Of a DNA stretch of 64,000 nt, positions 14,701 to 62,500 are shown one piece after another. The notes under the pieces are model-generated. The model was given only the letters and a program-made list of their open reading frames with translations, ran no database searches and was not told the DNA's origin. The number at the start of each line of letters is the position of its first letter. Within the stretch, counting starts at the first letter, position 1. This stretch comes from Leptodactylus fallax (taxonomy: Eukaryota; Chordata; Amphibia; Anura; Leptodactylidae). Location: contig CAMRHE010000011.1 in NCBI GenBank assembly GCA_947044405.1, positions 5,190,501 to 5,254,500 of the forward strand, in the 5' to 3' direction. A program made the translations under genes and the position numbers.

Positions 14701-17700
14701 TACTGTCAATCCATTTAGGTGCACAACTTAAATGCATACTGCCTACAATCCAAGGCAGGAGAAATTATGCTAGGTTCACACTAGAGTTCGGGTTTCTGTC
14801 CTTCAAGTTCGCATGGGGACCCGAAAGATGGAAACCCTATCCGCTTAAAAAGCGTTTACACACAGAAACACGCAGATCTTATAGACTATAATGGGTTTCA
14901 CCGGGTTCCTGCCAATTTTATATTGAAATCAGTGCAGAGAAAAGTCCCCCTTGCAGGACTTTTCTCTCTGGCGATTTAATCGGAATCTGGGATGGAGACA
15001 AGCGAATGCTAATGTGAACCTAGTGTTAGGCTGCTTTTGGACTACGGAGGGGACTTAATATTCCCTTTTGCCAGTTTTCTGGCATAGAAAAAGTCACAAA
15101 CTGGAAGTGTGTGATTTTTTAAATTCCACTTGCAACAAAATTTGCAACAAGTGGCATTTTAACATCACCCTCACTACTTTCTGAAAAAGGCAGTGCTAGA
15201 TTTATCATTGTTTACACAAATTTTCTAAACTTCCTGGAGTACCCCTTTATTTTATTATTGTAACTAGCTGAACACACACAATACAATTCTGTATAAAACC
15301 CCTTACAAAATCCAAATTGCTGATATATAAGTGTTAACTGTAACTTGTTTGATGGCCTATTATAAATAAGGTTATACAGTACCTTCTGTAAAACCTTCTT
15401 CTTCAAAATCTTCTGGAGTAAACTGTGCATTGGCTCTCCATCCCATCTTAGCTGCACCCAACGGAAATGCTGCTGAACTAGTAGTTCAGATCCTTGTAGG
15501 CGAGCTCTTCCCACTGTACCCATCAAAAAGCAATCTTCATGGAAGTAGTATGCCTCGGATGCTCCATTTGCTTCAATGGTAAACATGTGAGATGTGACAG
15601 TGATCTTAAGAATGAATTAAAACAAATAAACAATGTACTTCACTTACCTCTCTGAACACAAAATGGATTTTCCAAGCCTCGATTTTCTAATGAAGACATT
15701 AAATCTCCAAGCAGTTCCAATATGGAGACCGTCTCCAGCTTTTTTAGAACAATAATGGTTTTCCTCTTAGATGGAGGGGTATCAATAACTGGAATCAGAC
15801 AACCTGAAAACAAAAAGTAATAATAATGATCATTTAAAAAAAGCATGCAACAGGCCAAGATATAATGAGTTTCTGACCATAACCAGCATGTCTAGAGGAA
15901 ATAAAATATTTTTTGTAAGACCAATCAAAATGGATTTGTGGGTCACATTGACATAATAGCCATTTAGCCTACAAGAGGAGATAGGCGGGGTGGAACTCAT
16001 CAGTGAATAAAATGCATCCTTTATTCTTAAAAATACAGCAAACGGGGAGCGTCACCACACGCTTCAGTGCTGGCGCTCCAGCTCCCTGTTTGCTGTATTT
16101 TAGAATTGAAGAATAAAGGACGCATTTTATTTATTGGTGAGTGCCACCCTATCTGTTTCTCTTGCATGCTATGTTGAACTGATTTCCAACTAAGCACCAC
16201 TAGGAGGTCCAATGTGGGCAGTTCCAGCTGAAGTGCTACTATGCCGATTTGTGCCTCACTGTCTTGGATATCATCAGTTGTGGTAGTGCCACTGTATTTT
16301 GCCTCTCCACATCAGTCAGAATAGTCATTTATCACAAGGATAGGCCATAAAGATGGAGTGGAGTCATATCTTCTTAAAGGGGTATGCCCATGTGGGACAC
16401 TTATGGCACTTCCTGTAGATCATGTCCTAAGTGATAAGACTCGCATCTACCTCAAAAACTAACACTCATAGTTGATAAGGTTGGATAAAGCCACAAGTTC
16501 ATCAAGTCAAACCTATAATTCTACCATTTTCATCTACAGGAAGGCAAAAAACTCCCATGGAGCAGATTCCAATTGTCACGTATATGGGGGGGAAAAAAAA
16601 TTTATGCTGACTCCAAATTTAGCAATCGGAAGAAATCCCTGAATCAGTTTCTAGTTTCCATAACTTGCAATATTTTTACTCTTAAGAAAGGTATCCAGGC
16701 CCCTTTTGAACTTGTGCAAGTTATCAACCATATAACATCCATTTATATATTTGTACACTGTATTTAGGTTGTCCCTATGCAGTCTTTTTCCAAAGTGCAT
16801 CACACCAAGTCATAACCTGTCTTTATACACCAATTCCCTTCATAACCTTGGTTGCTCTTTTTTGCACCCGATCTAGTTCAGCTATGTTCTTCCTATCTAA
16901 AAGGTGCCCAAAATTATGCACAGTATTCCATGTGTGGTCTGATGTCCTTGTCAAGAGTATCTATGCCTTTATTAATGCATCCCATGATTTTATGTGTCTT
17001 GGCAGCAGCAGCCTGACTCTGGTTGCTAAAGGTTAGTTTACTGTCTACCAACACCCTCAAGTCTTTTTTAGAAGCAGTTTTACCCTGTGTTTTATAATTT
17101 AAAGAGGACCTTTCACCAACTCCAACAAGTTCAGCTTGTTACATCCTAGCCCCTACCATTCTCAAGAAATCAATGCTGTTAGTTCTGGTGCTTGATATGC
17201 TATTTAGTCTCTGTACTGTCAGAAGGACGGTGTCAGGCAGGAGCAGACAAGGGGTGTGATTCAGCACTCTGACACTGGCTGCCTCTGACAAGCTCTGAAT
17301 CACACACCCTGCCTGTCACTGCCCTTCTGACATTACAGAGCTTAAATAGCACATCATATCACAAGGCATTATGGGAAAGGAGCTGGGGAGCTCATGCGCC
17401 CTCTGTTGGATGTAACAGATCCTCAATTTGCTTTTGACTCACCGAGCCTTGAGACAGCAAAAGGGATTTTAGCCAAGCCAATTTCACTTATCTGCATACA
17501 GCGCTGTTTCCGGATTGTTGTCCTTCATCAGTACAGAGCAAAGTGAATTGGCTGGCTTAGTGGGAGGCAATGAGTGGGTTAGGGACAAGAATCTCTCACA
17601 TTGAGGAGAGCACCAGTGAAGGTGTGTAGAGATTTTAATTGCCTTTTGCCCTCTACTTAGCATCTACATATCACAAGGCATTATGGGAAAGGAGCTGGGG

Positions 17701-20700
17701 AGCTCATGCGCCCTCTGTTGGATGTAACAGATCCTCAATTTGCTTTTGACTCACCGAGCCTTGAGACAGCAAAAGGGATTTTAGCCAAGCCAATTTCACT
17801 TATCTGCATACAGCGCTGTTTCCGGATTGTTGTCCTTCATCAGTACAGAGCAAAGTGAATTGGCTGGCTTAGTGGGAGGCAATGAGTGGGTTAGGGACAA
17901 GAATCTCTCACATTGAGGAGAGCACCAGTGAAGGTGTGTAGAGATTTTAATTGCCTTTTGCCCTCTACTTAGCATCTACATATCACAAGGCATTATGGGA
18001 AAGGAGCTGGGGAGCTCATGCGCCCTCTGTTGGATGTAACAGATCCTCAATTTGCTTTTGACTCACCGAGCCTTGAGATAGCAAAAGGGATTTTAGCCAA
18101 GCCAATTTCACTTATCTGCATACAGCGCTGTTTCCGGATTGTTGTCCTTCATCAGTACAGAGCAAAGTGAATTGGCTGGCTTAGTGGGAGGCAATGAGTG
18201 GGTTAGGGACAAGAATCTCTCACATTGAGGAGAGCACCAGTGAAGGTGTGTAGAGATTTTAATTGCCTTTTGCCCTCAGCACATCAGACATCAAAACTAA
18301 CTGTGCTTGTTGCTTGGGAACAGTGGGAGCTAGAGAAAAAAAATTCCAACTGTGCTGGACTCAGTGGAGCGGCACCTATTAACAGATGCTAAGAACTAGA
18401 ATTGGTGGAGGTGGTGAAAGGTAATACATAACTACATTTATCTGCAATAAAATTAATTTGCCATTTCCTCACTCAAACTTCTATCTTCCCTAAATCTCTC
18501 TGTAGTATTACACAATCCTCATCTGTGTTGGCCATTTTAGAGTGCTTAGTATCATCTGCAAATATTGAGATTCCACTCTGTAAACCCTCTACAGTGCAAT
18601 CCCACTGTGGACTGTGACAAATCTGAGTATGTACCAATAATAATCACCCTCTGTATTATAACCAGTTGTTAACCCAGTTACACATATTTTTTCTAAATTT
18701 ATGTACCAACCCTTTATGTGGTGCAGTATTAAATGCCTTTAAAAAATCCAGTTACAGTTTTGCTGTTTTCTATGTTGACTGTCTCAGTATTTTCTGATGT
18801 TAAACAGTTGAAAAATTAATAAAAAAACTATTGACACAAAAAATCCAGTTACACTACATCCACAAAATTCCCCAGATTGAGTCTAGAATTTACTTCCTCA
18901 GAAGAAGCAGATTAGATTAGTCTGACAGGACCGCAATCTTATACACCCATGATGATACTATGTTATAAATTTATTATCATTACCATACTCCAGGATAACA
19001 GCTCTTAGAAACCATTCAAATATTTTTCCCACAAAAGACCTGTTGTTTCCAGGATTGCATTTGGGCCACCTTTCTGAATACGGCAACACACCAGTTATCA
19101 CTGCATAGATATATCACCAGATCTAAGCCTAGGGCATGGATACAGTAACAGAAAAAAGCCTACTACATAGATGAAGTAGGTCAGTAAGCCAGTATCTAAG
19201 CCAGTAAAAACTAGTAATTGTTGTCAGACAAAAACCTACATTAGGCTAAGATCACACGTGGCGTCCCGTAGCAAAAAAGCACTGCAGGAACAACCGCGGC
19301 AGCAACGCATTTCGGTTCTTCCTGCAGTGCTTTTGACAGAAAGATTGCAGAGTTTTCCTCTGCGGACTTTCTGCTTCAATTATACCCATAGGGAAACTGC
19401 CGGCGTTTCATTAGGTATAATTGACATGCTGCGATTTCCAATACCGCAACAGCTTTGGAAATCGCCGCGGGTCCGCAGCACGTATTTTAACGCAAAGTGA
19501 GGATGGCATTCGTTAGATTCCCATCCACTTTGCTGTGACTGTAAAAAAAAATTTTTTTTGGCCAGTCGACACAGTATACGCTTTGTTCCGGAACGAGGGA
19601 ATATGTTGTCATTTCTTGGGCCACTTACCTGAATTGATGAATATATCTACAAGTTGCTGTTTAGATAACTCAGACTCCACCTCAACCTTTACGATATCAC
19701 AGCTAAAGCCAGTAGCCTCTTCTTTGTGCTGTTAGGAAAAAAAAAATATTTATTAGTATTTTAGTATTGTACATATGTAGTCATACCTAACAACCAGCCA
19801 CAGCATGATACCTTGATGCAGCATGACAACTGATCCACAATATATTCCTGCAGACTTCCTTCTGGACCTTGAAAGATAATATTGTGATATTGTTCAACCT
19901 GCAAAAACAATTTTAACATTAGAATTATTCAATATACACATGAACTATATAAATGAGAAATTATATAAACGAGATAATAACATAAAGTATGATCAAGCAT
20001 TGTAAAAGGGATACTAAATACCTTCTGTATTCATGCAGTAAAGAGGTTGTACCAAGTTTAGAAGTTATCCTCTATCGATAGTATAGACAATAACTTTATG
20101 AATGGTGGAGGTCTCACCGCTGAGACCCCCCACTTATCCTGACAGGGGGAAGCAGCAGGTCAAGCATGCGCCATGCCCATTCATTATCAAGGTAAGCACC
20201 ATGGATAGCCAAGTACAGTGCTCGTTTATCTCTAGCACTTCCAAAGAGAATGAATGGAGCAACAGGGCGAAATGAATGGAGCAACGGGATAAAATGAATG
20301 GGGTAGCAGAGTACACACTCATTTTTGTATCTCAGGGCAACTAAATGATGTTAACTGGAGGAACTGGAGGAGGGAGCTTTGGTGAATGAGATGGTTCTAG
20401 TTACTGACATGATAAGGAAAGCAAATATGAGATAGGTCTATACCATATAATTAGCATGATGTTTTTACTTAGGTTATTAAGGTTGCACTTCCATGTGGTA
20501 CAGCATGGAGGCAAGTGCAGATTTTAACAGTAGCTCATAAAACAGTGTTGTGAACGGTCACTGCACAAGCTACAATGTGTGGCCATTACAAATGCTACTG
20601 ATTTCATTTGAAAACTAGGACAATCTTGTGTCAGTGTATTTATCACATGCAACCCAGTGGTTCCTTGGTGGTGGTGGTGCCTTAAGAAATGCAATTCCAG

Positions 20701-23700: not shown

Positions 23701-26700
23701 AGTATTCAGACCCCTTTAAATTTTTCACTCTTTGTTTCATTGCAGCCATTTGCTAAAAGCAAAGAAGTTCATTTTATTTCTCATTAATGTACACTCAGCA
23801 CCCCATCTTGACAGAAAAAAACAGAAATGTAGATATTTTTGCAAATTTATTAAAAATGAAAAACTGAAATATCACATGGTCATAAGTATTCAGACCCTTT
23901 ACTGTGACACTCATATTTAACTCACATGCTGTCCATTTCCTTCTGATCCTCCTTGAGATGGTTCTACTCCTTCATTGGAGTCCAGCTGTGTTTAATTAAA
24001 CTGATTGGACTTGATTAGGAAAGGTACACACCTGTCTATATAAGACCTCACAGCTCACAGTGCATGTCAGAGCAAATGAGAATCATGAGGTCAAAGGAAC
24101 TGCCATAAGTGTTCAGACCATTTGCTCAGTATTGAGTAGAAGGAACCTTTTGAGCTAATACAGCCATGAGTCTTCTTGGGAATGATGTAACAAGTTTTTC
24201 ACATCTGGGAATTGGAGATCCTCTGCCATTCTTACTTGCAGATCCTCTCCAGTTCCGTCAGGTTGGATGGTGAACATTGGTGGACAGCCATTTTCAGGTC
24301 TCTCCAGAGATGCTCAATTGGGTTGAGGTCAGGGCTCTGCCTGGGCCAGTCAAGAATGGTCACAAAGTTGTTCCGAAGCCACTCCTCTGTTATTTTAGCT
24401 GTGTGCTTAGGGTCATTGTCTTGTTGCAAGGTAAACCTTAGGCCCAGTCTGAGGTCCAGAGCACTCTGGAAGAGGTTTTCTTCCAGGATATCTCTGTACT
24501 TGGCAGCATTCATCTTTCCTTCAATTGCAACCAGTCGTCCTGTCTCTGCAGCTGAAAAACACCCCCACCACGTTTCATTGTTGGGATTGTATTGGGTAGG
24601 TGATGAGCAGAGCCTGGTTTTCTCCACACATACCGCTTAGAATTAACACAAAATAGTTCAATCTTCGTCTCATTAGACCAGAGAATCTTATTTCTCATAG
24701 TCTGGGAGTTCTTCATGTGTTTTTTTGGCAAACTCTATGCGGGCTATCATATGTCTTGCACTGAGGAGAGTCTTCCTCTGGGCCACTCTGCCATAAAGCC
24801 TCGACTGGTGGAGGGCTGCAGTGATAGTTGACTTTGTGGAACTTTCTCCCATCTCCCTACTGCATCTCTGGAGCTCAGCCACAGTGATCTTTGGGTTCTT
24901 CTTTAGCTCTCTTACCAAGACTCTTCTCCCACGATTGCTCAGTTTGGCTGGACGGCCAGGTCTAGGAAGAGTTCTTGTCATCCCAAACTTCTTCCATTTA
25001 AGAATTATGGAGGCCACTGTGTTCTTATGAACCTTTAGTGCTGCAGAAATTCTTTTGTAACCTTGGCCAGATCTGTGCCTTGCCACAATTCTGTCTCTGA
25101 GCTTCTTGGGTAGTTCCTTTGACCTCATGATTCTCATTTGCTCTGACATGCACTGTGAGCTGTGAGGTCTTATATAGACAGGTGTGTGCCTTTCCTAATC
25201 AAGTCCAATCAGTTTAATTAAACACAGTTGGACTCCAATGAAGGAGTAGAACCAGCTCAAGGAGGATCAGAAGGAAATGGACAGCATGAATGTTAAATAT
25301 GAGTGTCACAGCAAAGGGTCTGAATACTTTTGACCATGTGATATTTCAGTTTTTCTTTTTTAATAAATTTGCAAAAATATCTACATACATATATATATAT
25401 ATATACACACACAGTACAGACCAAAAGTTTGGACACACCTTCTTATTGCAAGAGTTTTCTGTATTTTCATGACTATAAAAATTGTAGATTCACACTGAAG
25501 GCATCAAAACTATGAATTAACACATGTGGAATTATATACTTAACAAAAAAGTGTGAAACAACTGAAAATATGTCTTATATTCTAGGTTCTTCAAAGTAGC
25601 CACCTTTTGCTTTGATTACTGCTTTGCACACTCTTGGCATTCTCTTGATGAGCTTCAAGAGGTAGTCACCTGAAATGGTTTTCACTTCACAGGTGTGCCC
25701 TGTCAGGTTTAATAAGTGGGATTTCTTGCCTTATAAATGGGGTTGGGACCATCAGTTGTGTTGTTCAGAAGTCAGGTGGATACACAGCTGATAGTCCTAC
25801 TGAATGGAGTGTTAGAATTTGTATTATGGCAACAAAAAAGCAGCTAAGTAAAGAAAAACGAGTGGCCATCATTACTTTAAGAAATGAAGGTCAGGCAGTC
25901 CGAAAAATTGGGAAAACTTTGAAAGTGTCCCCAAGTGCAGTGGCCAAAACCATCAAGCGCTACAAAGAAACTGGCTCACATGAGGACCGCCCCAGGAAAG
26001 GAAGACCAAGAGTCACCTCTGCTGCGGAGGATAAGCTCATCCGAGTCACCAGCCTCAGAAATCGCAGGTTAACAGCAGCTCAGATTAGAGACCAGGTCAA
26101 TGCCACACAGAGTTCTAGCAGCAGACACATCTCTACAACAACTGTTAAGAGGAGACTGTGTGCAGCAGGCCTTCATGGTAAAATAGCTGCTAGGAAACCA
26201 CTGCTAAGGACAGGCAACAAGCAGAAGAGACTTGTTTGGGCTAAAGAACACAAGGAATGGACATTAGACCTGTGGAAATTTGTGCTTTGGTCTGATGAGT
26301 CCAAATTTGAGATCTTTGGTTCCAACCACCGTGTCTTTGTGTGACGCAGAAAAGATGAACGAATGGACTCTACATGCCTGGTTCCCGCCGTGAAGCATGG
26401 AGGAGGAGGTGTGATGGTGTGGGGGTGCTTTGCTGGTGACACTGTTGGGGATTTTTTCAAAATTGAAGGAATACTGAACCAGCATGGTTACCACAGCATC
26501 TTGCAGCGGCATGCTATTCCATCTGGTTTGCGTTTAGTTGGACCATCATTTATTTTTCAACAGGACAATGACCCCAAACACACCTCCAGACTGTGTGAGG
26601 GCTATTTGACCAAGAAGGAGAGTGATGGGGTGCTACGCCAGATGACCTGGCCTCCACAGTCACCAGACCTGAACCCAATCGAGATGGTTTGGGGTGAGCT

Positions 26701-32700: not shown

Positions 32701-34537
32701 GGTGAATTTTCTAATAGTTATGGCTTTTTTCATTCATGGGTGTACTTAGGAGATTGTTCCTTTGTGTAACTGTCTGTGCTTTGTCTCAGTGTTTCCTGTG
32801 TACAGTAATATAATGTGCAATCCACAGCCCAGGCTACAGTGGTCAAACAAGTCTCAGGTACTAATTCAATTGTGGCCACTCTAATTAGCAAGTCAGACGT
32901 GCTGAGTGTAGCAGACATTGCTACTCTGAATCATCTGAGAGCATTGCTGATCAAAGATCTAGATCAGGGGTGTCAAACTCATTTTCTCCGGGGGCCACTT
33001 CAGCCTCACGGGGTACCTTGAAGGGCCAAGATTATTTTACACATGTATAAAAGTAACTTCTCCTTAACAGTTAAGCGAGCTTTTAAGGAGTAGTTACATT
33101 TGTACATTACTACTGTTACAATCAGCCCTTTGAGGTCAACCAGGAAGAACATAATGTATTGTTAAAACCTAAGACATTGACATGTTACATACTATCCTCA
33201 TCCTTTTCTGAATATATCAAAAATTAAGCACTATACAAATACTGTTTACCCCTGCAAACGGTATTATGCTCTATAGTTGCCTCTGCACACGGTATTATGC
33301 CCCACAGTGGCCCCTGCACACGGTATTATGCTCCATAGTTGCCCCTGCACACGGTATTATGCTCAATAGTTGCCCCTGCACACGCTATTATGCTCAATAG
33401 TTGCCCCTGCACACGGTATTATGCTCAATAGTTGCCCCTGCACACGGTATTATGCTCCATAGTGGCCCCTGCACACGGTATTATGCTCCATAGTGGCCCC
33501 TGCACACTGTATTATGCTCCATAGTGGCCACTGCACACGGTATTATGCTCAATAGTGGCCCCTGCAAACGTTATTATGCTCCATAGTGGCCCCTGCACAC
33601 ATTATTATGCTCCATAGTGGCCCCTGCACACGTTATTATGCTCCATAGTGGCCCCTGCACACGTTATTATGCTCCATAGTGGCCCCTGCACACGTTATTA
33701 TGCTCCATAGTGGCCCCTGCACACGTTATTATGCTCCTTAGTGGTCCCTGAAATCGGTATTATGCTCCTTAGTGGCCCCTGCATTGGTATTATGCCCCAT
33801 AGTGGCCCCTGCACACGGTATTATGTCCCATAGTGACCCCCCACCCATGAACTATTATTATACTCTGGGGTCTTTTCAGACCCCAGAGTATAATGATCGG
33901 AGACCCAGGTGGTGACAAACATAAAACCAGTGTTACTTACCTGGGCTCCGGTGCGCTCCCTGCATTCGGCCTTCTTCAATGTCGCACAGAACGGCGTCGC
34001 GACATAATGACATCGGCCCGGCTCACGTGACGCCTGGGACGTCACCAAAGAAGGCCGAAGACGGCTGGGAGCAACATCGGATCGCCGGAGAGGTGAGTAA
34101 CTCTGGTTTTTATGTTTATCACCTCCCCTGGGTCTCCGATTATTATACTCCGGGGTCTGAAAAGACTCCGGAGTATAATAATAGTAGTATTTGATGGGGT
34201 TCGCCGGCCGCGGCCTCACTTACCATCCCCGCTCCTGCACACAGCCGCTTCTGCGTCCCATAGCAGAAGGGGAAGCGGGGGCGGCCACGACCAGCAGCGG
34301 GGATCGATAAGTAAATAGGCCGTTACGTGCTGGGGATACTCCAGCAGGCAACGGCCTATTTATATATATAAAAAACTTATCTTTACCTACCTCTGATGTC
34401 TTGATGCAGCCGCGGCCTCCTCCTCTTCTTGTCCCCGACGTCTGTGTGTCAGCGTAGGAGGCGCGATGACGTCATTGTATCGCCGCCTGCGCTGACATGC
34501 AGAGGTCTTGTAAACCAGCCCAGGACAGGTATCGCGC

Positions 34538-40500: not shown

Positions 40501-43500
40501 ATACACCACTCTTTTATATGTAAACAGAAATAAAACACCCCCCTTCCTGGGAGGGACTTTCCAATTAGTATCACAAAAATACATAATAAAGGGGGACGGA
40601 GCTTGCCGCAGACTAAGATGGCCGCATAGATTCTCAGTTCCTGCAGTGAGCCTTTGACAGCGACGTTCATAGCCACGATCCTGTGGCTATCTAGGCAGAT
40701 TCTGGTTGGTGAATACCCGCTGGCTCCGGGGATGCCAAAAAAAAAAGGAAAACGGCCGTCAAACCACAGAAAATTTTGGATTTTTATTTCCCACACTGGG
40801 TGAGGGAGGGGGGGGTAGGTGGAGGCCCAAGATGGCGCTGGTTTCTGTGCGGGCGCAGGATACGGGGCCTCGACTCCCTCGCATACCTTCCCCGATGAGC
40901 CACTTACCTTATCTGGACACCGGTGAACCCTTTCCGCTCCACCGTTGCCGCAGATGATGACACAGTTACGGAGCCACGAAGTGCTGCATTGCCTCCAATA
41001 GGGGTTGTGGCCTGCTCGGAATGGTCGTCCTCCCAAGATGGCGCCGAGGAGATGCGCGCGTCTGGCTCTCCTTCCACAACGGCAGCACCATGGTCTCCTA
41101 CTGCCAGCCCAGCTAAATTGAGACCCCGACTTCATGATGCTGCAGTCTCTGATGGAGAGGTGAGCCATGACACACAATCTAAAACACCTTGTGTTGATTT
41201 TTTTGCTGATATACCGGCATCAGAGAATTTACTGACTGAGGCCACTATGAAAGTTATGTTGACAGCCTTCTGTAAATCAATGAAAGCTGATATGTCTCTT
41301 AAGATCACACCACTTGAGCGAGATATTCAAGATCTGAAAAGTCGCACTGTACATATAGACTCTAAGATGGCGGAATTTCCTACATCCCATAATGACCTTA
41401 TAGATGCCCATTATGATGTGGAAAATGATGTGACCTTTTTGAAAGCTAAAATAGCTGATTTGGAAGATCGGTCCAGAAGGAATAACTTGAAATTCAGGGG
41501 CATTCCGGAGACGGTTGCTACAGGAGAACTGCCCACTTTCCTTCAGGATCTGATGCGTGCCTTACTGCCTGACCACCAGTCTATAGATTTAACTATCGAC
41601 AGAGCACATAGGAGTACCCAGACCCTCACATTTGGATGAATCAATTCCAAGAGATGTTCTGGCGAGGATTCACTTTTTTCGCACTAAAGATTTGGTGTTA
41701 TTAGCAGCTCGTAAACTAGACCGCCTCCCTGAACCGTTTCACAAGATCTCCATTTTCTGAGATTTGTCGGCTGCAACTTTACAACTACAACGTCAGCTAG
41801 TCCCCATTACAGCAGCACTTCGTCAACATTGTATCCTGTACAAGTGGGGATTCCCAGTCCGAGTGATGATAACCCTAGATAATCTTACACATGTGATCAG
41901 GAATTTAGAAGAAGGAAAACGATTGTTAAGTAAATGGAACATTCCTATTGTTGATCTCCCACGTGCGAAAACGCCTGGCCACCTGTCTAACGGTTGGCAT
42001 CCAGCGAAGACCCGAAGACTTCCAGCCACAGGAATCAAACGCTGAAGGCTCTTTCTCCATTTCCCTAGGAAATTCCTATGTCTGCTGCTGCTGAACTTAT
42101 CCCCCTGAGATCACAACAGCTGCTGGTCCGCTGTACTATGTTACTTGTTATTTTCAGCTTGACCGTTGTTGAGCTCTATGGTTTGGCTGATTTATTTCTT
42201 AGAGGTTCTGGCACCTTGGTCGAAACGGCTTTCTGGCATGGAGACAACCTCCTACTTCTGTGCTTAAGTATTATTTCAATGTGTACTAGTCTATATGTGG
42301 CGATTCTTATAGCTCTTTTAGATTTGCAGGATGGTTCTTATGTCCATGAATGTTAGGGGGTTGAATACCCCTCAAAAACGAGCTAATTTGTGGGGTGAGG
42401 TTCAGGTTCAGGGTTGTGACATAATAGCAGTACAGGAGACACACCTTTTGAAGAAGGACGCCACCCGCGTTAAACACCCATCATATCCTCATATGTTCCA
42501 TGCTCATTACTCCAAAACGCAGGGGAGTGCTGATCGGGATCAGAGATTCAGTTGCGTTTCAGCTACTCTCCCAATACTCAGGCCCTGGGGGACGTTTCAT
42601 TATATTGGTGTGTCTCATCAACAATGTCACTTACACGTTGGTGTCAGTTTACGCTCCCAATAAGAGACAGGTAGCATTCTTCAGAAGACTTGTGAAGGCG
42701 ATTGAAAAAAGAAATCAGGGTTGCTTACTGTTGATGGGAGACTTTAACATAGCACCTGATCCTTTGGTAGATACCACATCTGGCCTCTCACAGCGACTCC
42801 CTTTTTCACAGGCTCTGTGGCACCATAATTTGTTTGACGCTTGGCGGAGCCTGCATAGCACTGAGCTAAACTATACTTTTTTCTCAACCGCACATAATAG
42901 CTACTCTCATATTGACCTATTTTTAGTGGACCAATGCACTGTCCCTCTTGTTATGCAGTCCGCCATCTCGCAAATAACATGGTCCGACCACGCGACGGTT
43001 ACGCTTCTCATATCGAGGAAATATGACTGTCCTAGGTCGCATGTATGGCGATGTAATGAATTCTTGATGTCACACCTGAAATTTAAGGCAACTTTGGAGA
43101 GTGAACTGAAGGAATTTTTTTCAGATTAATACTCCATCGGTATCTAGCCCTGAAGTATTGTGGAACTCCCATAAGGCTTTCATTAGGGGTACCTTTATAC
43201 GTCTTGGCCACATTGAAAAGAAAACTAGAATAGCAGAGATAGACCGGTTTATAAGTCAAATAAAAATCTTAGATACTGACAATAAAAAGTCCCCTATTTC
43301 CTCAAATACAGTTAAACTGGTAGAACTACGCCGACAACTTGCTACTTGTTTGTTACATAAGCATGAAAAGAACTTAAAGCGGGTGAGAGCTACCTATTAC
43401 TCTCAGTCAATAAAGCGGGGAAACTGCTAGCCTCTAAACTTAAACAGAGACATGTTAAATCCAGGATCCCGTTCCTCCATAGTAAGGACGGAACATATAA

Positions 43501-46500
43501 AATTTATGACCCTAAAGGTATAGGGGATGCATTTAGGTCCTTTTATGCGGATCTTTATAATATTGCAGACGACCCCTCGGTGGCCCCCCTCCCAAGCAGA
43601 TATTGATTCATTCTTAACCTCGGCCCATATGCCCCGACTTACTGAAGATCAACTAGCGTCCTTAAATGCTCCTATAACTGCTTTGGAGTTGTCTGCAATT
43701 ATTAAGTCGTTGCCCTCCCGTAAATCTCCGGGTCCAGACAGTCTTACTAAAGAATATAATAAAACGTTTTCCCAGATTCTGCTGGACCCGCTGTAGTCAT
43801 TTATAAGGGTTGAGTCTAAAGCATTTCCTAGGGAAAATCAAGAGGCATTGGTGGTTACTTTGCCTAAACCTGGTAAGGCCCCGACCTCGCCCCAGAATTT
43901 TAGACCCATTTCCCTGTTAAATTCCGATTTAAAAATTTATGCTAAGCTTCTTGCGACGCGCCTAGCAGACTGCCTCCCGAGCTTAATAAATTATGACCAA
44001 GTAGGATTTGTTAAGGGGCATCAAGCCTACAAAAATACCAGGCGGGTCTTGAATTTGGTTCAACGGGTCGGTTTGGGGGGCATGGGGGCGGTGCTGCTTG
44101 CTCTGGATGCCGAGAAGGCGTTTGATCGCATTTGCTGGTCGTATGCCTTCTTGGCTCTTAGGACTATGGGATTCTGGGGAATGATTTTGGGGGCCATAAA
44201 GGCGCTCTACTCAGCACCCTCTGCAAAAATTTTTACAAATGGTACAGTGTCAGACCCTTTCATAATTACTAATGGGACTAGGTAGGGATGCCCATTGTCA
44301 CCCTTGATATTTGTCCTCTCCATGGAGCCGCTGGCCCAGCATCTAAGATTAGATCCTGCTGTACAGGGCGTCACTATAAAAGATAGAGTCCATCTTATAT
44401 CGCTATATGCTGACGATATTCTTCTTACGTTAACCAACCCGGGGGTGTCTCTCCCACGTCTTATGGGTATTATTCAGACTTTCGTTCAGCTGTCCTATTA
44501 TAAATTGAACTTGTAAAAATCACAGGCCCTTCCCTTCGATGTTCCCACTTCCATGCTGAGATCCTTACAGTCAGCATATAATTTTGACTGGAGGAAGGAT
44601 AGCATTCAATATTTGGGTATACATGTGTCTTCCACTCCTTGGTCTCTTTATCAACAAAATTATTTGCCAATGATAAAAACTCTGCGAGACGAAACTAAAC
44701 GCATGCTACTAACAGATGTTTCCTGGATTGGGCGAGTGGCCACTTTTAAGATGCTACTATTGCCTAGACTTCTATACTTGTTCCGCAGGCTGCCGATTCC
44801 ACACCCTGCTTCATTTTTTTAATCTATACAGAGAGTGATTTTGAAATACATATGGGGTGGTAGAAGGCCTAGAATTAATAGAAGTTTCCTGTTTAAACAT
44901 AAACTGGCTGGAGGACTGGGTGTTCCCATTGTGTGTAACTACAGTCATGGCCAAAAGTTTTGAGAATGATACAAATATTAATTTTTACAAAGTCTACTGC
45001 TTCAGTTTTTCTAATGGCAATTTGCATATACTCCAGAATGTTATAAAGAGTGATCAGCTTAACAGCAATTACTTGCAAAGTCAATATTTGCCTAGAAAAT
45101 GAACTTTATCCCCCAAAACACATTTCAACATCATTGCAGCCCTGCCTTAAAAGGACCACCTAACATCGTTTCAGTGATTGCTCCATTAACACAGGTGTGG
45201 GTGTTGATGAGGACAGGGCTGGAGATCAATCTGTCATGATTAAGTAAGAATGACACCACTGGACACTTTAAAAGGAGGCTGGTGCTTGCCATCATTGTTT
45301 CTCTTCTGTTAACCATGGTTATCTCTAAAGAAACACGTGCAGTCATCATTGCACTGCACAAAAATGGCCTAACTGGGAAGAGTATTGCAACTAGAAAGAT
45401 TGCACCTCAGTCAACAATCTATCGCATCATCAAGAACTTCAAGGAGAGAGGTTCCATTGGTGCCAAAAAGGCTCCAGGGCGCCCAAGAAAGACCAGCAAG
45501 CGGCAGGACCGTCTCTTAAAAGTGTTTCAGCTGCGGGATCGGACTACCTGCAGTGCAGAGCTTGCTGAGGAATGGCAGCAGGCAGGTGTGAGTGCATCTG
45601 CATGCACTGTGAGGTGGAGACTCTTGGAGCAAGGCCTGGTCTCAAGGAGGGCAGCAAAGAAGCCACTTCTCTCCAGAAAAAACATCAGGGACAGACTGAT
45701 ATTCTGCAAAAGGTACAGGGAGAGGACTGCTGAAAAGTCATTTTCTCTGATGAATCCCCTTTTCGATTGTTTGGAACATCTGGAAAACAGCTTATTCGGA
45801 GAAGAAGAGGTGAGCGCTACCACCTGTCTTGTCTCATGCCAACTGTAAAGCATCCTGAAACCATTCATGTGTGGGGTTGCTTCTCAGCCAAGGGAATCGG
45901 CTCTCTCACAGTCTTGCCTAAAAACACAGCCATGAATAAAGAATGGTACCAGAATGTCCTCCAAGAGCAACTTCTCCCAACCGTCCAAGAGCAGTTTGGC
46001 TCTCAACAATGCCTTTTCCAGCATGATGGAGCACCTTGCCATAAAGCAAAGGTGATAACTAAATGGCTCAGGGAACAAAACAGAGATTTTGGGTCCATGG
46101 CCTGGAAACTCCCCAGATCTTAATCCCATTGAGAACTTGTGGTCAATCATCAAGAGACGGTTGGACAAACAAAAACCAACAAATTCAGACAAAATTAAAG
46201 CATTGATTCTGCAAGAATGGACTGCTATCAGTCAGGATTTGGTCCAGAAGTTGATTGAGAGCATGCCAGGGAGAATTGCAGAGGTCCTGAAGAAGAAGGG
46301 TCAACACTGCAAATATTGACTTGCTGCATTAACTCATTCTAACTGTCAATATAAGCTTCTGTTACTCATAATATTAATGCAATTATATTTCTGTATGTGA
46401 TAAAAACATCTGCCAAACACACATAAAAACCAGAGGGCAACAGATCATGTGAAAATATAATATTTGTGTCATTCTCAAAACTTTTGGCCATGACTGTATT

Positions 46501-53500: not shown

Positions 53501-56500
53501 GGGGACCTATCTCCTAAGGAACTAATAGAAAAATCTATATAGGGTAAATCTCAATACTCCCATAGTGGAGGAGAATACATACTGGTCATCATTACATATA
53601 GACCATTTCACAGACAAAAGACAGCAGCCTCCTGATCAATACAGTGGTAAGGTCAGCAGTTAAGCTACTCTAATTCTAAAAAACATTGGTGGTAAAGTTA
53701 CCTGTCATCTGACATGTTTAAATACACCCCCTTATAAATTAACTACTGTACACATGCAGGTTCCACAGGTTAGATGGGGAGTGAGTGGTAATATCCACCC
53801 ATGTGTATATGATGCCGGCGTCCATAGTTTCCAATAGCGCATGAACCAGCGGAGTGGTGAGATCAAACCGATTTATTCGTTTTTTTAAAAAAAAGCTTAC
53901 TATTCTCTGCTAATGTTAATATGTTTGGTATGAGATATAAGATATATGGTATTTAATTATGCCTTTTTTACATAAGGATCCGGTGAATTAGAGATCTATA
54001 TGTAATGTTATTGGTGGTATTTATCTTGGTACCTTTGAATGTTTTCTTGAGAAGTGGTATATTTTTTATTTATTATTTATTAAAAGTTATGTTTTAGTAT
54101 ATTATACGTCTTTGCTGGTAATATATTTCTTTTTGGACGTTTTATGCTGACACAGTATCGTATCAGCTGTTTTGCTTGATTGTGTTATTTTTTTTTATAC
54201 TTTATTAGACCCCCTAGGGCAGGGGGCGGCAACCACCGTCACGCGTTCCAAGAGTGGCACGTGTGGCATATCTTGCTGGCACAGCATGCAGCAGGGGACC
54301 TGCAAGGGAACTCCCCCTTCTCTTGCAAGAGAGTGGTGAGGAAAGCCCAGGAAGAGGAGCTCACACTGTGCAGCAACAGAAGAGGAGGAGAGAAGAGCTC
54401 CATACAGCAAAGTGAAAGTAAAAAACACCAGGTACATGCTGGGGTTACTAATCTTATTAATGTCAGGCATTTGGGTTTATTAATTTAGTTTTAGTAACTC
54501 CATGTGCCTCACATTAATAGCAATTAACCCCATCATGTTCCTAACATTAACCCCCGTGTGCTTTACATAAGAGTTTCCATAGCTCCCAACCGTCCCGCAT
54601 CTGGCAGGACAGTCCCGATTTTACACTGCTGTCCCGCATAGCTTACAGTTTGTCCCGCTATTCCCCTGAAGTGTTTTGCTGTTAACAAACTTTATTATGT
54701 TAGGGTAAAGGCTAAATGGTAGATGCTAAATCGTAATGGCTAAAGGACCTTTGATGACGTCATGAACATGTGATCAGACTCGTGTGGGCGGAGCTATTCT
54801 GGATACTGTGGGACACACTGTGATGGTACACAGAAAGCTGGGAACAGAGAGTGATCGAAGATAAGTAGGAGAGAAGAGAGCATGTGTGAGCAAGAGGGGG
54901 GAACTGGGAGCAGATGAATGGGCAATTAAACTGAAGGCAGATTAAGGGGGCAATTAAACTGGTGGCAAATAAAGAGGACCTTAAGCTGGTGGCAGATAAA
55001 GGGGGACATTAAATTGGTGGCAGATAAAGGGGGACATTAAATTGGTGGTAGATGGAGGGGGCAATTAAACTGGGGCAGATGAAGGGGGGCATTAAGCTGG
55101 TGGCAGATGAAGGGGGACATTTAATTGGTGGCAGATAAAGGGGGACGTGAAGCTGGTGGCAGATGGAGGGGGGACATTAAACTGAGGGGGCAGATGGTGG
55201 GTGACATTAAACTGGGGGCAACTGGAGGAGGACATTAAACCATGGGGGATAGCTGGAGGGGGGACATGTCTGCCTCTAGTTGCTCCCAGTTTAATGTCCC
55301 CCTCCAACTACACCCACTGTTTAATGTCACCCTCCAGCTGCCCCATAGTTTAATGTCCCCCAACTACCCGCACTGTTTAATGTCACCCTTCAGCTGCCCC
55401 ATAGTTTAATGTCAACCTCCAGCTGCCCCATAGTTTAATGTCCCCCTCCAGCTGCCCTAGTTTAATGTCCCCCTCTAGTTTCCGCCAGTTTAAACTGGGG
55501 CACGAGGAGAGGGACTTAGTACTGTGGGGAAATTGGAGGGGACCAATATAATGTGGGGGCATATAATGTTAAGGTGACTGTAGGAGCATTATACTGTGTG
55601 GGGGCACATGGAAAAATAGATGAGAATGGGCGAAGTCAATATAGAAGTGTGTGGAGCTAAATTTGCCGCGGTGCGCATAGCGCTCCGCATATTTTGTCCC
55701 TCTTTCTGTCCTTTGAAAGTTGGGAGGTATGGAGTTTCTAATATGCGAGACATATATAGGGAGGTTCTAATAAAGGACCTTAATGATGAAGATACTTAAT
55801 TATTACCTCCATGTCTCTCACATATCAGTAACCTTTATGTAAAGCACACAGGGTTTAATGTGAGGGACATGATAGGGTTAACTGCTATTAATATGAGGCA
55901 CATGGAGTTACTAAACTGTAATGCACATGACTATACTTTTTATCTACAATTGTGGATAAAATTATGGACTATTATATTTCAATGGGCCCATACACACAGC
56001 CATTGTATTTGCGGCCATGTGTCTGGGCCAAATTGAAGAGCTGCAAATTATGGAGCAGGTCCTATATCTGTCCTATACATACCCTATATCTGTCTGCATT
56101 TGTACTCTGTCAATTCATTTTTAATGTATAGGTCAGTGAAAACCACATCCGTGCCATTTGTGTGCAGGAAGGCCTAAGGCTGAGGCCCCACGTTACGGAA
56201 ACGCAACTTTTTTTGTTGCAGATTTCGCTGCGGCTTTTTGAGTCAAAGCCAGGAATGGATTGAGCAGAAGGTAGTAGTATAAGTGCTTTCTATACATTTC
56301 CCATTTCTTTTGTAGCCATTCTTGGCTTTGGCTCAAAAAAATGCAGCAAATTGTGCACCAAAAAAAGCCGCGTTTCTGCAACGTGGCGCCTCAGCCTAAG
56401 GATGTTTCTTTTTGGGTGGTAACACTGTGTACCCAGGTGCGGCTATAGCCAAATCCAGTTCCCGGGCACCAGTGTTGTCACTTTGGGGTAAGTGTGATAC

Positions 56501-59500
56501 CCATTAATTCCTGGCTGGGGTTTTGCTGTTACCGCACTGCCAGGAATTAAATGTGGCTGAAATTAATCCGCGTTTCATTTACAGAAAAGTGAAAGTACTG
56601 GCGGCTTGGGATGCAGCATCCAGGTACATAGTGTGTCACTATCCTACAGGTGTTACCTCACTCTGCTCCCAGTCATATACATTTACCACTAATTGTGGGT
56701 TACACATGTACTTACGTTGCTTCTAATGGAAAAGTACAGGTGTATCAAGACAAAGAGCGGTAAACACACATGACTGGGTGCACAGTATGACAGCAACCCT
56801 GTGTTATGGTTTGCGGGATATAACTTTAGAATAGGGGTCATCAGCCTTACAATTATTGCTCGGCACTCCGAGAACCTAATCTTTGATTTTTTTTTTTATT
56901 TAAAACGGCACACCGAACAAAAAAGGTTGCCTACCCCTGCCCTAGGGGTACTGAACCCTGATCGGTAAGAATTCATCTGCCAGCACCACCACGAGCAGCT
57001 GGTATCAGCAGACACCAGCTGGTTTGAGAATCTATATATTTGACTGTAAAACTCCTTTAATTTGTTTAACTGCAATTCAAATCATTCTCTGCATAAGAAT
57101 ATTGGTTAGTGAGCCTCTACTACTCATCTGCTAAACTATACCATTTTCTTAACCCAAGGTATCAACAGTGTACAATAAGCATTCCAGTAAAGCAGTTTCC
57201 TCTAAAATCTTCTCAGATGGGTTTAGCAATTTTTCGTTTGCGGCCTTTTTTATGCAAATCCAAATGAGATAAAGGCAAGCAAAAACTGATTTCTGTGAAA
57301 ATTCTGTCTGCATTAGAAAAACAAAACAAAAAAACACACTCAAAAAAGCTTAGAAACAATGTATCTGTACTTTGGGAAATGTTATTCATCATTGTCACCC
57401 ATGACTGTGATTTAACTCCCCCACTGAGATAAAACTAGTGAACTGTAGAGTGAAAACAAAAGAAAAGCTGAAAACTAAAGACAGAACTAAGGAAGTCATT
57501 ACTATTTTAATGGTATACATAGAAACTACTTAGATGAATTAACCCTCAAATGTACTGACTCCAGTCACCACAATGGTTCTCTAGGTTTAAAAGTTCCTTT
57601 AAACTCTGTACATAGAAACTTTTTAGACAATCTATTTAGGAAAAAATGTAAATGTTAGAAAAGCAAAATTATATCTACAGAAATTTACCTATAAAATAAA
57701 GCAGATGTGTGTGTAGATTATTATTAAGGTCATCTATATTCTGACATTTCTAAGGGTCCTTTTACACAGACAGGTCATCATTTGGTGCTCCTTAAGGGCA
57801 CAAAACCTATGAAGCCGATCAGCGCTCATACTTTATTTCAGTTTCACTGTACAAAAACGGGAAGCCCCTTGTCTCATTTATATTATATGAGGCAATATGT
57901 TGCCGACAAACGATTACGGTTATGCCCAACATAATCTGGGCGATCAGCTGACACGTTTTTGCTGATTTGTGGGCATGTACGTATATGATCATTCATACAA
58001 ACATTAGTTCAGCCAATCTTTGGGCCATGTAAATAGTCCTTTACTTATTGCCTGACTTTCAGGCCAGTCACATGGTCTTTTTGAAAACCTTTTAAAACAT
58101 TCCATGATAGAGCTTATTCTCATACAAAGATACATTTAAGGTGGAGGGACATGTCATTTGAATGACGATCTAAAAAAAATCTAACATTATATGCTACAAA
58201 AAAAAAAAAGCTTTTAAGAGCATACCTTAAAGCCTCTTGATGCTGCAATATGTGCAGCTGTCCATCCCTCACTGTCTGAACTATTGATCAGTGTTGCCGA
58301 AATGACAGGTTCGAGACTACTACTTTCTTTGTTCTTTAAATCATAACGTCTCACATCAAATTCCTTACGAGAATCACAATGGCTTTGACTTCCATAATAC
58401 ATGAGGAGTGTGAGACAATCTGTATTTCCAGAATCTGCTGCAGCATGAAATGGTGTCCAGCCAGTCTAGAAAAGCAGAAACCATTGCATTTATATTACTA
58501 AGAACTATTCAGAATCAATATAGACTTTACCAGAGTGGAAAATAATGATCTCAACACTCAGCAAAATAAATTGCAAACAAAGTAAATCTCAGATCATCTT
58601 CCACATGCAGCTGAAATCTGATTAGATGGCTACCAAAGTTAGAAAAAAAGCAATCTATCCACACTTCTAAGGCTAGGTTCACATCTGTTCACGGGTCTCC
58701 ATTGTTCAGGTCCACTGGGGGACCCAAATGAGAGAAAGCCGGACAGCTAAAACAGTGATTACCTGCGGACCCTATAGACTATAAAAGTCCTTGTGGATTC
58801 AGTGCAGATGTGAACCTGACCTATATCTATATTTATCTGTCTATTTATATACACATATATCTAGCTATATTATACGTATATATTATAAATATCTCGCCAT
58901 ACTATTGGCTATTTAGACATTCTATTTGGAAGCATTTACAAGGTCATACCTACATTTGTCATAATATTTCGATTGGCACCAGAGTCCAGTAAAAGTTTAA
59001 CAGTTTCACAGTTTCCATTTTTACAAGCTAGATATAATGGGGTTTGTCCTCCACCAACAGCGTTGATATCAGCATTGTATGCAAGCAATTCCTCTGCACA
59101 TCTAAAGAAAATACCAGAGCAAGGATAATATTAAATTACAGTTACATTTTATGCTTATACATTTACAAAGTGTCAAGAGTTATTTTGTGTCATCTTTGCA
59201 TCATACTGTACAGTCATGGCCAAAAGTTTTGAGAATGACACAAATATTATATTTTCACATGATCTGCTGCCCTCTGGTTTTTATGTGTGTTTGGCAGATG
59301 TTTTTATCACATACAGAAATATAATTGCATTCATATTATGAGTAACAGAAGCTTATATTGACAATTAGAATGAGTTAATGCAGCAAGTCAATATTTGCAG
59401 TGTTGACCCTTCTTCTTCAGGACCTCTGCAATTCTCCCTGGCATGCTCTCAATCAACTTCTGGACCAAATCCTGACTGATAGCAGTCCATTCTTGCAGAA

Positions 59501-62500
59501 TCAATGCTTTAATTTTGTCTGAATTTGTTGGTTTTTGTTTGTCCACCCGTCTCTTGATGATTGACCACAAGTTCTCAATGGGATTAAGATCTGGGGAGTT
59601 TCCAGGCCATGGACCCAAAATCTCTATGTTTTGTTCCCTGAGCCATTTAGTTATCACCTTTGCTTTATGGCAAGGTGCTCCATCATGCTGGAAAAGGCAT
59701 TGTTGAGCGCCAAACTGCTCTTGGACGGTTGGGAGAAGTTGCTCTTGGAGGACATTCTGGTACCATTCTTTATTCATGGCTGTGTTTTTAGGCAAGACTG
59801 TGAGAGAGCCGATTCCCTTGGCTGAGAAGCAACCCCACACATGAATGGTTTCAGGATGCTTTACAGTTGGCATGAGACAAGACTGGTGGTAGCGCTCACC
59901 TCTTCTTCTCCGAATAAGCTGTTTTCCAGATGTTCCAAACAATCGAAAAGGGGATTCATCAGAGAAAATGACTTTACCCCAGTCCTCAGCAGTCCACTCC
60001 CTGTACCTTTTGCAGAATATCAGTCTGTCCCTGATGTTTTTTCTGGAGAGAAGTGGCTTCTTTGCTGCCCTCCTTGAGACCAGGCCTTGCTCCAAGAGTC
60101 TCCGCCTCACAGTGCGTGCAGATGCACTCACACCTGCCTGCTGCCATTCCTCAGCAAGCTCTGCACTGCTGGTAGCCCGATCCCGCAGCTGAAACACTTT
60201 TAAGAGACGGTCCTGCCGCTTGCTGGTCTTTCTTGGACGCCCTGGAGCCTTTTTGGCACCAATGGAACCTCTCTCCTTGAAGTTCTTGATGATGCGATAG
60301 ATTGTTGACTAAGGTGCAATCTTTCTAGCTGCAATACTCTTCCCAGTTAGGCCATTTTTGTGCAGTGCAATGATGACTGCACGTGTTTCTTTAGAGATAA
60401 CCATGGTTAACAGAAGAGAAACAATGATGGCAAGCACCAGCCTCCTTTTAAAGTGTCCAGTGGTGTCATTCTTACTTAATCATGACAGATTGATCTCCAG
60501 CCCTGTCCTCATCAACACCCACACCTGTGTTAATGGAGCAATCACTGAAACGATGTTAGGTGGTCCTTTTAAGGCAGGGCTGCAATGATGTTGAAATGTG
60601 TTTTGGGGGATAAAGTTCATTTTCTAGGCAAATATTGACTTTGCAAGTAATTGCTGTTAAACTGATCACTCTTTATAACATTCTGGAGTATATGCAAATT
60701 GCCATTAGAAAAACTGAAGCAGTAGACTTTGTAAAAATTAATATTTGTATCATTCTCAAAACTTTTGGCCATGACTGTATAAATTCATAACATGAAGACC
60801 AGAGTTCTCAAAGCTTAACATAGTTTTTAGCTACCACTGACCACAAGCAAATAACTTTTCAAGCACTATGAATGCATCATGGGAACCTTTCTAATGGGCT
60901 AATGAGTACATCTGACCTCAACAACCAGCAGCCTACAGGGCTACCATTTAGGTTGCAATTCCATGTTCAGGTTTTGATGAGGTTTTTTGCTTTTGTTTGT
61001 GAAGCCAAAACCCTCCTTATGATCTACACCTAACAATAATAATAATAATAGTTATTTATATAGTGCCAACATATTCCACGTCACTTTACAAATCAGAGGG
61101 TACATGAACAGACAATATTATTAGACATCACAGTGTGACAAAATAATTAACATATCAAACAATAGGAGTGGGGCCAGTGGGGCTTGCAAGAACATACAGC
61201 CTATGAGGAAATAGGGGGGACATAAGATAAACAAAACAAAAAAACTGAGCATGGAAACCAAGCAGTGAGATGGTGGGTAGGTATAAAATCTAAAAGGCGT
61301 TTCCCTTGTGTCTTTCTGATTGAGTCCCAAGAGTAAGACTAAATACAGTGATAATGTCCAAAATGACTGAGCACCGAGGTAATCAAAAATGAGGATGATC
61401 GTAAAATATTACAGGGGGATCTAAGGAAGCTGGAAGCATGGGCAGAGACTTGGCAAATTAAGTTTAATGTTGACAAATGTAAGGTTATGCATTTTGGTTG
61501 AAAAAAATAAAATGTATGATTATGTACTTAATAATAAATTACTGGGTAAGACTGCCACTGAAAAAGACTTGGGTAGACAGCTACTGCCAAGGCAAATAAA
61601 ATTATGTGATGCCTCAAAAGAGGTATAGATTCTCATGACAACAACATAGTTATCCCTTTATACAAATTACTGTTACGGCCACATATAGACTATTGCGCGC
61701 AATTGTGGGCTCCATTGTACAAGGAGGACATAATCGAACTAGAGAGAATGCAGAGGAGGACGACCAAGATTATTGGAGGAATGGGTGGATTGGAGTACAA
61801 CAATAGATTAACAAATTTACAGGGAGACCTAATAAAAATGTACAAATGCATGAAGAGACAGAACAAAGAACTTTCTAATTATTTTTTCACTCCTAGGCCA
61901 GTGACAGTGACCGGGTGACATTACGGGTTATGGGTTTTATATTTTGGCAAGGACAATTTGATCCAGGGATTTATACTGGATTGCCAAATTTGGAGTCGGC
62001 AACAAATTCTTTTAACCTGACATGGGGCAGTTGACATTCATTTAGCCTCATCTACTATGTAACTTAATGTGATTTCCTAAATCCTGATCATAACATTTAA
62101 TAATTTAATGAGTATAGTCAGCTTTAAGTTAACACTGTTTTCATTGGGTCTGTCCAACGTGTACATGGGTATATGAGTTGGGGTGGAAAGAAGAAAAATA
62201 AATTGACGGATCTTATTTTCCTCGACATTAGACAGTCCTACAGAAAACAAAGGATTTGGCCAATATTAAGAAGGATCAGGCTGTTGGATTTCAACATGCT
62301 TGATATTTTTGTTCTAAGCATAAAATAAGCACCACCAGAGGGTTCTAGCAGAGACTTATTCCCATCTCCCCATTTTGAAACACAGCATGTCTATGGCGGT
62401 TCAGCCGAATGAACTTCTGTTCAACAGCTATTCAATGACTACGGCCACACTTACTGCTACCTAGGGGTTTAGCTCTGTGTTTGTAAGCTATATGCCTAAC

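Follow-up and report, generated by a model that had tools for sequence, protein, structure and literature searches.

A dispersed hammerhead retrozyme of Leptodactylus fallax with an insertion footprint suggestive of a Penelope-type mover

A 64,000-nucleotide stretch of the genome of the frog Leptodactylus fallax (assembly GCA_947044405.1, contig CAMRHE010000011.1, positions 5,190,501 to 5,254,500; below, the window, with its own numbering) carries a short tandem array of 312-bp units, which represents a single recent insertion of a small, mobile RNA element bearing a hammerhead ribozyme. The element is probably a vertebrate retrozyme without long terminal repeats (non-LTR), copied by a borrowed reverse transcriptase (RT) that most likely belongs to a resident Penelope-like element (PLE), from two internal sites and from both ends of the target. 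The insertion scars of dispersed relatives of the window copy suggest, by analogy, Penelope as the mover. What speaks for this reading is the dispersal of the element, its target site duplications (TSDs), one empty site, two preferred 3' ends, fold-back copies, microhomology at the fold-back junctions, and a like architecture in a resident PLE family.

Results

Tandem Repeats Finder (TRF) gave a period of 312 bp, 3.0 copies and 99% matches at 17355-18277, and a scripted comparison of all positions of the array one unit apart found a single substitution, in agreement with an earlier note on this DNA, made from the letters alone, which had described three near-identical tandem copies with an exact spacing of 312 bp. 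The coordinates given there, 17357..18277, turned out to be those of the exact mobile insert (921 bp, RNA sense on the minus strand; TRF and script), since the 9-bp duplication AGCACATCA abuts both ends, its left copy at 17348..17356 and its right copy at 18278..18286. The insert amounts to 2.95 units (2 x 312 + 297 nt) and holds three complete ribozyme copies; on the minus strand, the RNA-3' end lies at 17357 (unit position 140) and the RNA-5' end at 18277 (unit position 156). The GC content of the unit is 0.46, and no stop-to-stop open reading frame (ORF) of at least 110 codons overlaps the insert.

On the minus strand, every unit of the window was confirmed to contain the hammerhead parts listed in the earlier note: CTGATGA, a 3-bp stem II (GGA/TCC), GAAA, a GTA cleavage triplet (GUA in the RNA), the 10-nt palindrome ACAGCGCTGT of stem III and a long imperfect stem I. 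Sequence and fold place the three ribozymes, measured from stem I to stem I, at 17471..17557, 17783..17869 and 18095..18181 of the minus strand, with predicted cleavage at 17497/17496, 17809/17808 and 18121/18120, respectively. All letters of the type I core (CUGANGA ... GAAA ... UH) are present in these copies. Two 120-nt segments, folded together, gave a hammerhead dimer whose two halves share a stem III of 10 bp. A lone copy misfolds, its core CUG pairing with the CAG of the stem III strand, and its folding energy is no better than that of shuffled sequences (z -0.55). The units are predicted to cleave themselves as paired (dimeric) hammerheads.

The helices were assessed in an alignment of 41 copies (40 distinct rows), all from the L. 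fallax genome, of which 31 have an intact catalytic core. Standard pairing holds for 96.8% of the 31 named pairs across the distinct rows; shifting the partner by 1-3 columns lowers this to 19-39%. Changes on both sides were found at 2 of the 31 pairs, both in stem I (A-U/G-C and U-A/C-G); the covariation score was higher than in all 500 shuffles, and the count of two-sided pairs was reached by 256 of the 500. Since two-sided changes are this few and no commoner than in shuffled data, covariation lends stem I modest support. At its base, stem II has a G-C pair in 19 rows, G-U in 9 and a non-standard combination in 12, mostly the A-G of the window subfamily. The caveat raised earlier about an A-G pair at this position is right for that subfamily; elsewhere in the genome, copies carry G-C or G-U. 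The exact 35-nt core of the window subfamily occurs 1748 times in the genome (reversed control, 0), so the A-G subfamily is not a dead end.

A covariance-model search, proposed in the earlier note as a check, had a divided outcome. It failed for the window copy, which gave no Rfam hit at the gathering threshold and no hammerhead family at E values up to 10. It succeeded in part for older copies of the family, which match RF02275 (Hammerhead_HH9) in 9 of 20 loci with 25.7-32.6 bits, the cut-off being 52; one older copy searched alone reached 32.6 bits (E 5.7e-7), still below the Rfam cut-off.

Abundance was estimated from exact patterns, a DNA search with a single unit having returned nothing, probably because common words were skipped. 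A 28-nt exact ribozyme pattern has 3461 matches in the 2.5-Gb genome and its reversed form has none, so the pattern is not there by chance. The matches are dispersed over many contigs, and among the listed matches to this pattern and to the 35-nt core at least 12 distinct close pairs on opposite strands were counted by eye, all of them minus-then-plus, that is, head to head. The genome-wide search for the unit that the earlier note had called for therefore does find dispersed tandem copies. The vertebrate host that it had assumed is supported by one strong match to vertebrate telomerase RNA in the genome (187 bits).

The insertion footprint was examined in two sets of copies. The first comprised 35 elements with about 1 kb of flanks, mapped from genome search matches; its counts leave out the copies on contig C353 (pieces L023, L044 and L045) and the second fragment in L026. 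The replication set consisted of 20 of 40 planned loci, taken in the list order of the ribozyme pattern search, with predictions noted beforehand. An apparent 35-bp 'tail' at the match borders of the first search was rejected as a search artefact, and the borders were redone locally. The first set contains 16 arrays of single polarity and 19 fold-backs with two arms. TSDs of at least 8 bp were found in 22 of its 35 elements, as against 9 of 1190 mismatched flank pairs, and in 13 of the 20 replication loci, as against 6 of 380; one of the 22 (L034) is doubtful, lying in a local repeat, and without it TSDs of 8-16 bp are present in 34 of the 55 copies of both sets. One element (L033) lies inside a Penelope copy and reveals an empty site: the joined 314 nt match 15 of 16 loci of the resident PLE family described below nearly end to end, with 82-94% identity.

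The RNA-3' ends of these copies fall at two places. In the first set, 45 of 54 lie at most 8 nt from unit position 140 (28 ends) or 230 (17 ends), with a binomial probability of 9e-35 against a uniform distribution; the 5' ends show no clustering there (6/54, p 0.54). The replication set gave 22 of 27 3' ends at the same two sites (12 + 10; 3e-17). Neither site is the ribozyme cleavage site, and just 1 of the 54 first-set 3' ends lies at most 8 nt from the latter. From this clustering, two candidate RT start sites are proposed, both on the minus strand. Site A, at unit position ~140 (...CCTTGTGATA followed by TG), corresponds to 17357..17360 and is the RNA-3' end of the window copy. Site B, at unit position ~230 (...TTGTCCCTAA followed by CC), is not an end of the window copy; by arithmetic it would lie at 17577..17581 and also at 17889-17893 and 18201-18205.

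Fold-backs make up 26 of the 55 copies, and in all of them (19/19 and 7/7) the arms stand head to head; in all 19 of the first set the RNA-3' ends were recorded as outermost. One arm starts at each of the two sites in 14 of the 26 (11/19 in the first set, 3/7 in the replication set), and in none (0/19 and 0/7) do both arms start at the same site. Given the observed shares of the sites (40 and 27 arms), 14 mixed fold-backs out of 14 have a probability of 4e-5. Microhomology of at least 3 nt was present at 11 of 19 arm junctions, with 5.7% expected. A U2 small nuclear RNA-like sequence (RF00004, 52 bits, cut-off 46) lies about 110 bp downstream of one fold-back (L027:1574-1727).

Frequent head-to-head fold-backs might also arise as self-primed hairpins, as has been proposed for Penelope of rotifers in a passage of PMC3846280. 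However, in the 26 fold-backs the arms have inner coordinates 8-156 nt apart, while hairpin arms would meet at one point, so the arms look like two separately started complementary DNAs (cDNAs); the outer ends, moreover, cluster at two sites. We regard the hairpin explanation as highly improbable.

At diagnostic sites, 657 of the 670 combinations of element and site show no variation within the element, and private variants are seldom shared. This fits one source RNA per insertion, a circle and a homogeneous multimer alike. In the first set, 18 of 32 long arms had lengths near whole 312-nt laps, noticed post hoc, which had seemed to hint at copying round a circle; with 7 of 19 in the replication set, the idea was dropped.

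Another reading is an ordinary satellite that spreads by recombination or as circular DNA, with the ribozyme as a passenger. The units are tandem, and longer arrays do exist: at C5:3495939-3498777 a direct array has 10 in-register exact core matches of the window subfamily at a spacing of 310-312 bp, possibly a local expansion, and an 8.9-kb tandem family on C353 (145917-181844) contains a diverged retrozyme copy (five matches). Such a satellite should form large local arrays without scars, whereas short dispersed arrays were found, with TSDs, an empty site, preferred ends, head-to-head arms and thousands of pattern sites across the contigs listed. The satellite reading is contradicted for the dispersed copies and as a general account has almost nothing left to recommend it; long arrays may have grown locally. 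The preference of the earlier note for a retrozyme over satellite growth is upheld by the dispersal, the TSDs far above chance, the empty site, and the fixed 3' and variable 5' ends. The element shares with animal non-LTR retrozymes a non-coding unit of 150-450 bp repeated in tandem, a GC content below 50%, a type I hammerhead, and a dispersed multicopy distribution with TSDs of more than 4 bp. As a separate observation, the 8.9-kb repeat of C353 has a 403-codon open frame (L023:2116-3327) with cysteines that by eye resemble CCHC knuckles.

Frames with a GIY-YIG domain are plentiful in the genome (112 matches among the 150 scored of 647 candidates). Of the 27 GIY-YIG loci taken, partly chosen for variety, 16 form one family, PLE-A. 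At least two further GIY-YIG families are present besides it (L059, L061-L064 and L070; L058, L060 and L067), some with long frames. A fuzzy motif detected a minimal hammerhead in 13 of the 16 PLE-A loci, on the downstream side of the nuclease; Rfam called none in the 7 PLE-A loci searched. End counts leave out the reference L056, and also L051 (GIY-YIG, by eye not a PLE), L046 and families B and C. Of the 25 aligned PLE-A pieces, 15 have their end close to either of two sites that lie 38 nt from each other (7 short, 8 long); in two loci, L052 and L072, the copy is a fold-back, its arms lying near different sites. TSDs of at least 9 bp were found in 6 of 8 PLE-A copies, one of them away from the border and two within AT-rich repeats, with a null of 3/56 at 8 bp or more. 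The footprint comparison with resident retrotransposons covered PLE-A only.

These features have counterparts in published PLE work. Internal initiation at two adjacent sites in vitro, with both target strands cut and extended, is described in a part of PMC11167929, and an inverted adjacent pLTR, a 9-bp TSD and an optional 31-bp tail are described for Penelope in a part of PMC3846280. The Discussion of PMC7229834 names 'LINEs or PLEs among others' (LINE, long interspersed nuclear element) as possible mobilisers of retrozymes and calls PLEs 'a strong candidate', on other grounds. As far as the footprint goes, the retrozyme shows what a Penelope-type mobiliser would leave behind: paired internal RT starts, extension of both ends, head-to-head arms and short TSDs. 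It is not itself a PLE, as its unit has no ORF for an RT or a GIY-YIG endonuclease.

Several points weigh against a Penelope-type mover. In the replication set, 7 of 27 5' ends lie near the two sites, where roughly 3 were expected. At least one arm starts elsewhere in 12 of the 26 fold-backs; among the 7 replication fold-backs, only 3 had an arm at each site as predicted. Of the 25 PLE-A pieces, 10 end elsewhere. Comparison of the unit with the PLE loci examined found no similarity (best E 3.5; none at E up to 5 in another search), and the start sites have no obvious motif or fold in common. The spacing of the sites is 90 nt in the retrozyme, as against 38 nt in PLE-A and 30-40 nt in published PLE tails. 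Finally, twin priming by LINE-1 also makes head-to-head 5' inversions with microhomology at the junction. A descent of the retrozyme from PLE-A by sequence was considered and rejected, no similarity having been found.

The chief alternative is a retrozyme moved by a LINE (of the L1/Tx1, CR1/L2 or RTE type), its fold-backs being products of ordinary twin priming. Such elements are present in the genome: positions 42452-44282 of the window hold LINE pieces that have endonuclease and RT domains. TSDs of 8-16 bp would suit them. In LINE-1 twin priming, however, the second start is scattered, whereas the arms here favour fixed internal starts, one at each site in 14 of 26 fold-backs and both at a single site in none. 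Junctions inspected by eye showed neither an A-tail nor a simple-repeat tail, and a similar pattern is seen in the resident PLE-A. The AT content of the TSDs is 0.652, compared with 0.598 in the flanks. On balance we consider a LINE an unlikely mover, and the PLE remains the preferred one.

The window also contains other repeats. LINE pieces (Exo_endo_phos and RVT_1, Pfam) extend over 40899-44282, the first of them (40899-41636) without a Pfam match. Pieces of Tc1-type transposases (DDE_3 and HTH_Tnp_Tc3_2, Pfam) lie at 24235-24636, 25652-26341 and 59391-60308, and TRF found minisatellites with many copies of 31 bp at 33249-33840 and of 28/29 bp at 54902-55475.

Discussion

From these results, a mechanism of movement by a Penelope-type enzyme may be suggested. 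A non-coding RNA of 312-nt units would be transcribed from the minus strand and cut into units by the dimeric hammerheads, the units perhaps then being circularised; membership of the family makes a circular RNA of this element plausible. Copying of the RNA back into DNA would fall to a reverse transcriptase borrowed from another element, most likely the resident PLE, and would begin inside the RNA at the fixed sites A (~140) and B (~230). The target would be cut with a stagger that gives rise to a duplication of 8-16 bp, and each of its two ends would serve as primer for one start. If one target end were extended, an array of single polarity would result, as in the window; if both were, typically one from A and one from B, the cDNAs would join head to head into a fold-back, often via a few bases of microhomology.

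A wider claim can be made more tentatively, and taken as a whole we hold it to be somewhat short of probable. One RNA, perhaps a circle, might be reverse-transcribed simultaneously from both ends of the staggered cut by a Penelope-type enzyme bound at two dedicated sites, A and B; the two-site Penelope 'tail' and the retrozyme fold-backs might then reflect one two-ended mechanism, distinct from LINE and LTR integration, and intronic hammerheads of amniotes such as HH9 might be fossils of retrozymes that Penelope had delivered.

Retrozymes of amphibians, dimeric hammerheads and circular RNAs are already known from the work described in PMC7229834, and the element is therefore not a new kind. 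What is new here is the two-site insertion footprint; the fold-back architecture and the A-G base of stem II in a recently amplified subfamily make the element a variant worth naming. Neither two preferred start sites nor fold-back retrozymes were found described in the open-access literature searched, which misses most subscription papers, and a word search inside PMC7229834, PMC7761336, PMC11722881 and PMC8490949 did not find wording for such a footprint; TSD-like and inverted repeats are mentioned for the W elements of schistosomes in a passage of PMC8490949. The enzyme that moves animal retrozymes is left open in the relevant part of PMC7229834, and the footprint gives a sharp test: the enzyme responsible must start cDNA at two defined internal sites, using both target ends. 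For Penelope biology, the retrozyme copies would offer many short natural substrates in which start sites and cDNA joining can be read directly. Through them, a family amplified recently is also tied to the conserved hammerheads in amniote introns.

RF02275 (HH9) and the older L. fallax copies have the same base of stem I (CUGCA/UGCAG) and a CAAAAA loop II. HH9, which we take to be the C10 intronic motif, is a conserved intronic sequence, whereas the L. fallax element is an abundant mobile array. Repeat-associated hammerheads of Xenopus tropicalis were described in 2011 as resembling two intronic ones of amniotes, C10 and RECK, in a passage of PMC3088659.

The closest relatives in form are Rtz_331 and Rtz_353 of the axolotl and satellite 2 of the newt, as described in parts of PMC7229834. 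Their tandem repeats are of similar length (330/350 bp, 312 bp here), their type I hammerheads likewise have a weak palindromic stem III and work better as dimers, and their TSDs, when present, exceed 4 bp as in L. fallax. They are described there as having no LTR, a further likeness to the present element, in which LTR, primer binding site (PBS) and polypurine tract (PPT) motifs were not searched for as such. The axolotl ribozyme HHR_Amex2 is also mismatched at the base of helix II, with U-U in place of the A-G found here. Circular RNA was demonstrated for the axolotl and newt elements, whereas for that of L. fallax it is presumed. Fold-backs and two preferred RT starts distinguish the L. fallax element; the words 'inverted', 'head-to-head' and 'reverse transcription' are absent from the main text of PMC7229834. 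Plant LTR retrozymes, too, are non-coding hammerhead elements thought to move via circular RNA, according to parts of PMC4918200 and PMC7761336; the latter gives them a type III hammerhead, LTR, PBS, PPT and a 4-bp TSD, whereas a type I hammerhead and TSDs of 8-16 bp are found here.

With PLEs, as described in parts of PMC11167929 and PMC3846280 and seen in PLE-A, the retrozyme shares a type I hammerhead, tandem or partial tandem copies, a head-to-head inverted arm, two 3' ends per family (the tail), short TSDs, and an internal RT start downstream of the hammerhead. PLEs differ in encoding an RT and a GIY-YIG nuclease and in having a minimal hammerhead, whereas the retrozyme has no ORF and carries a 10-nt palindrome in stem III.

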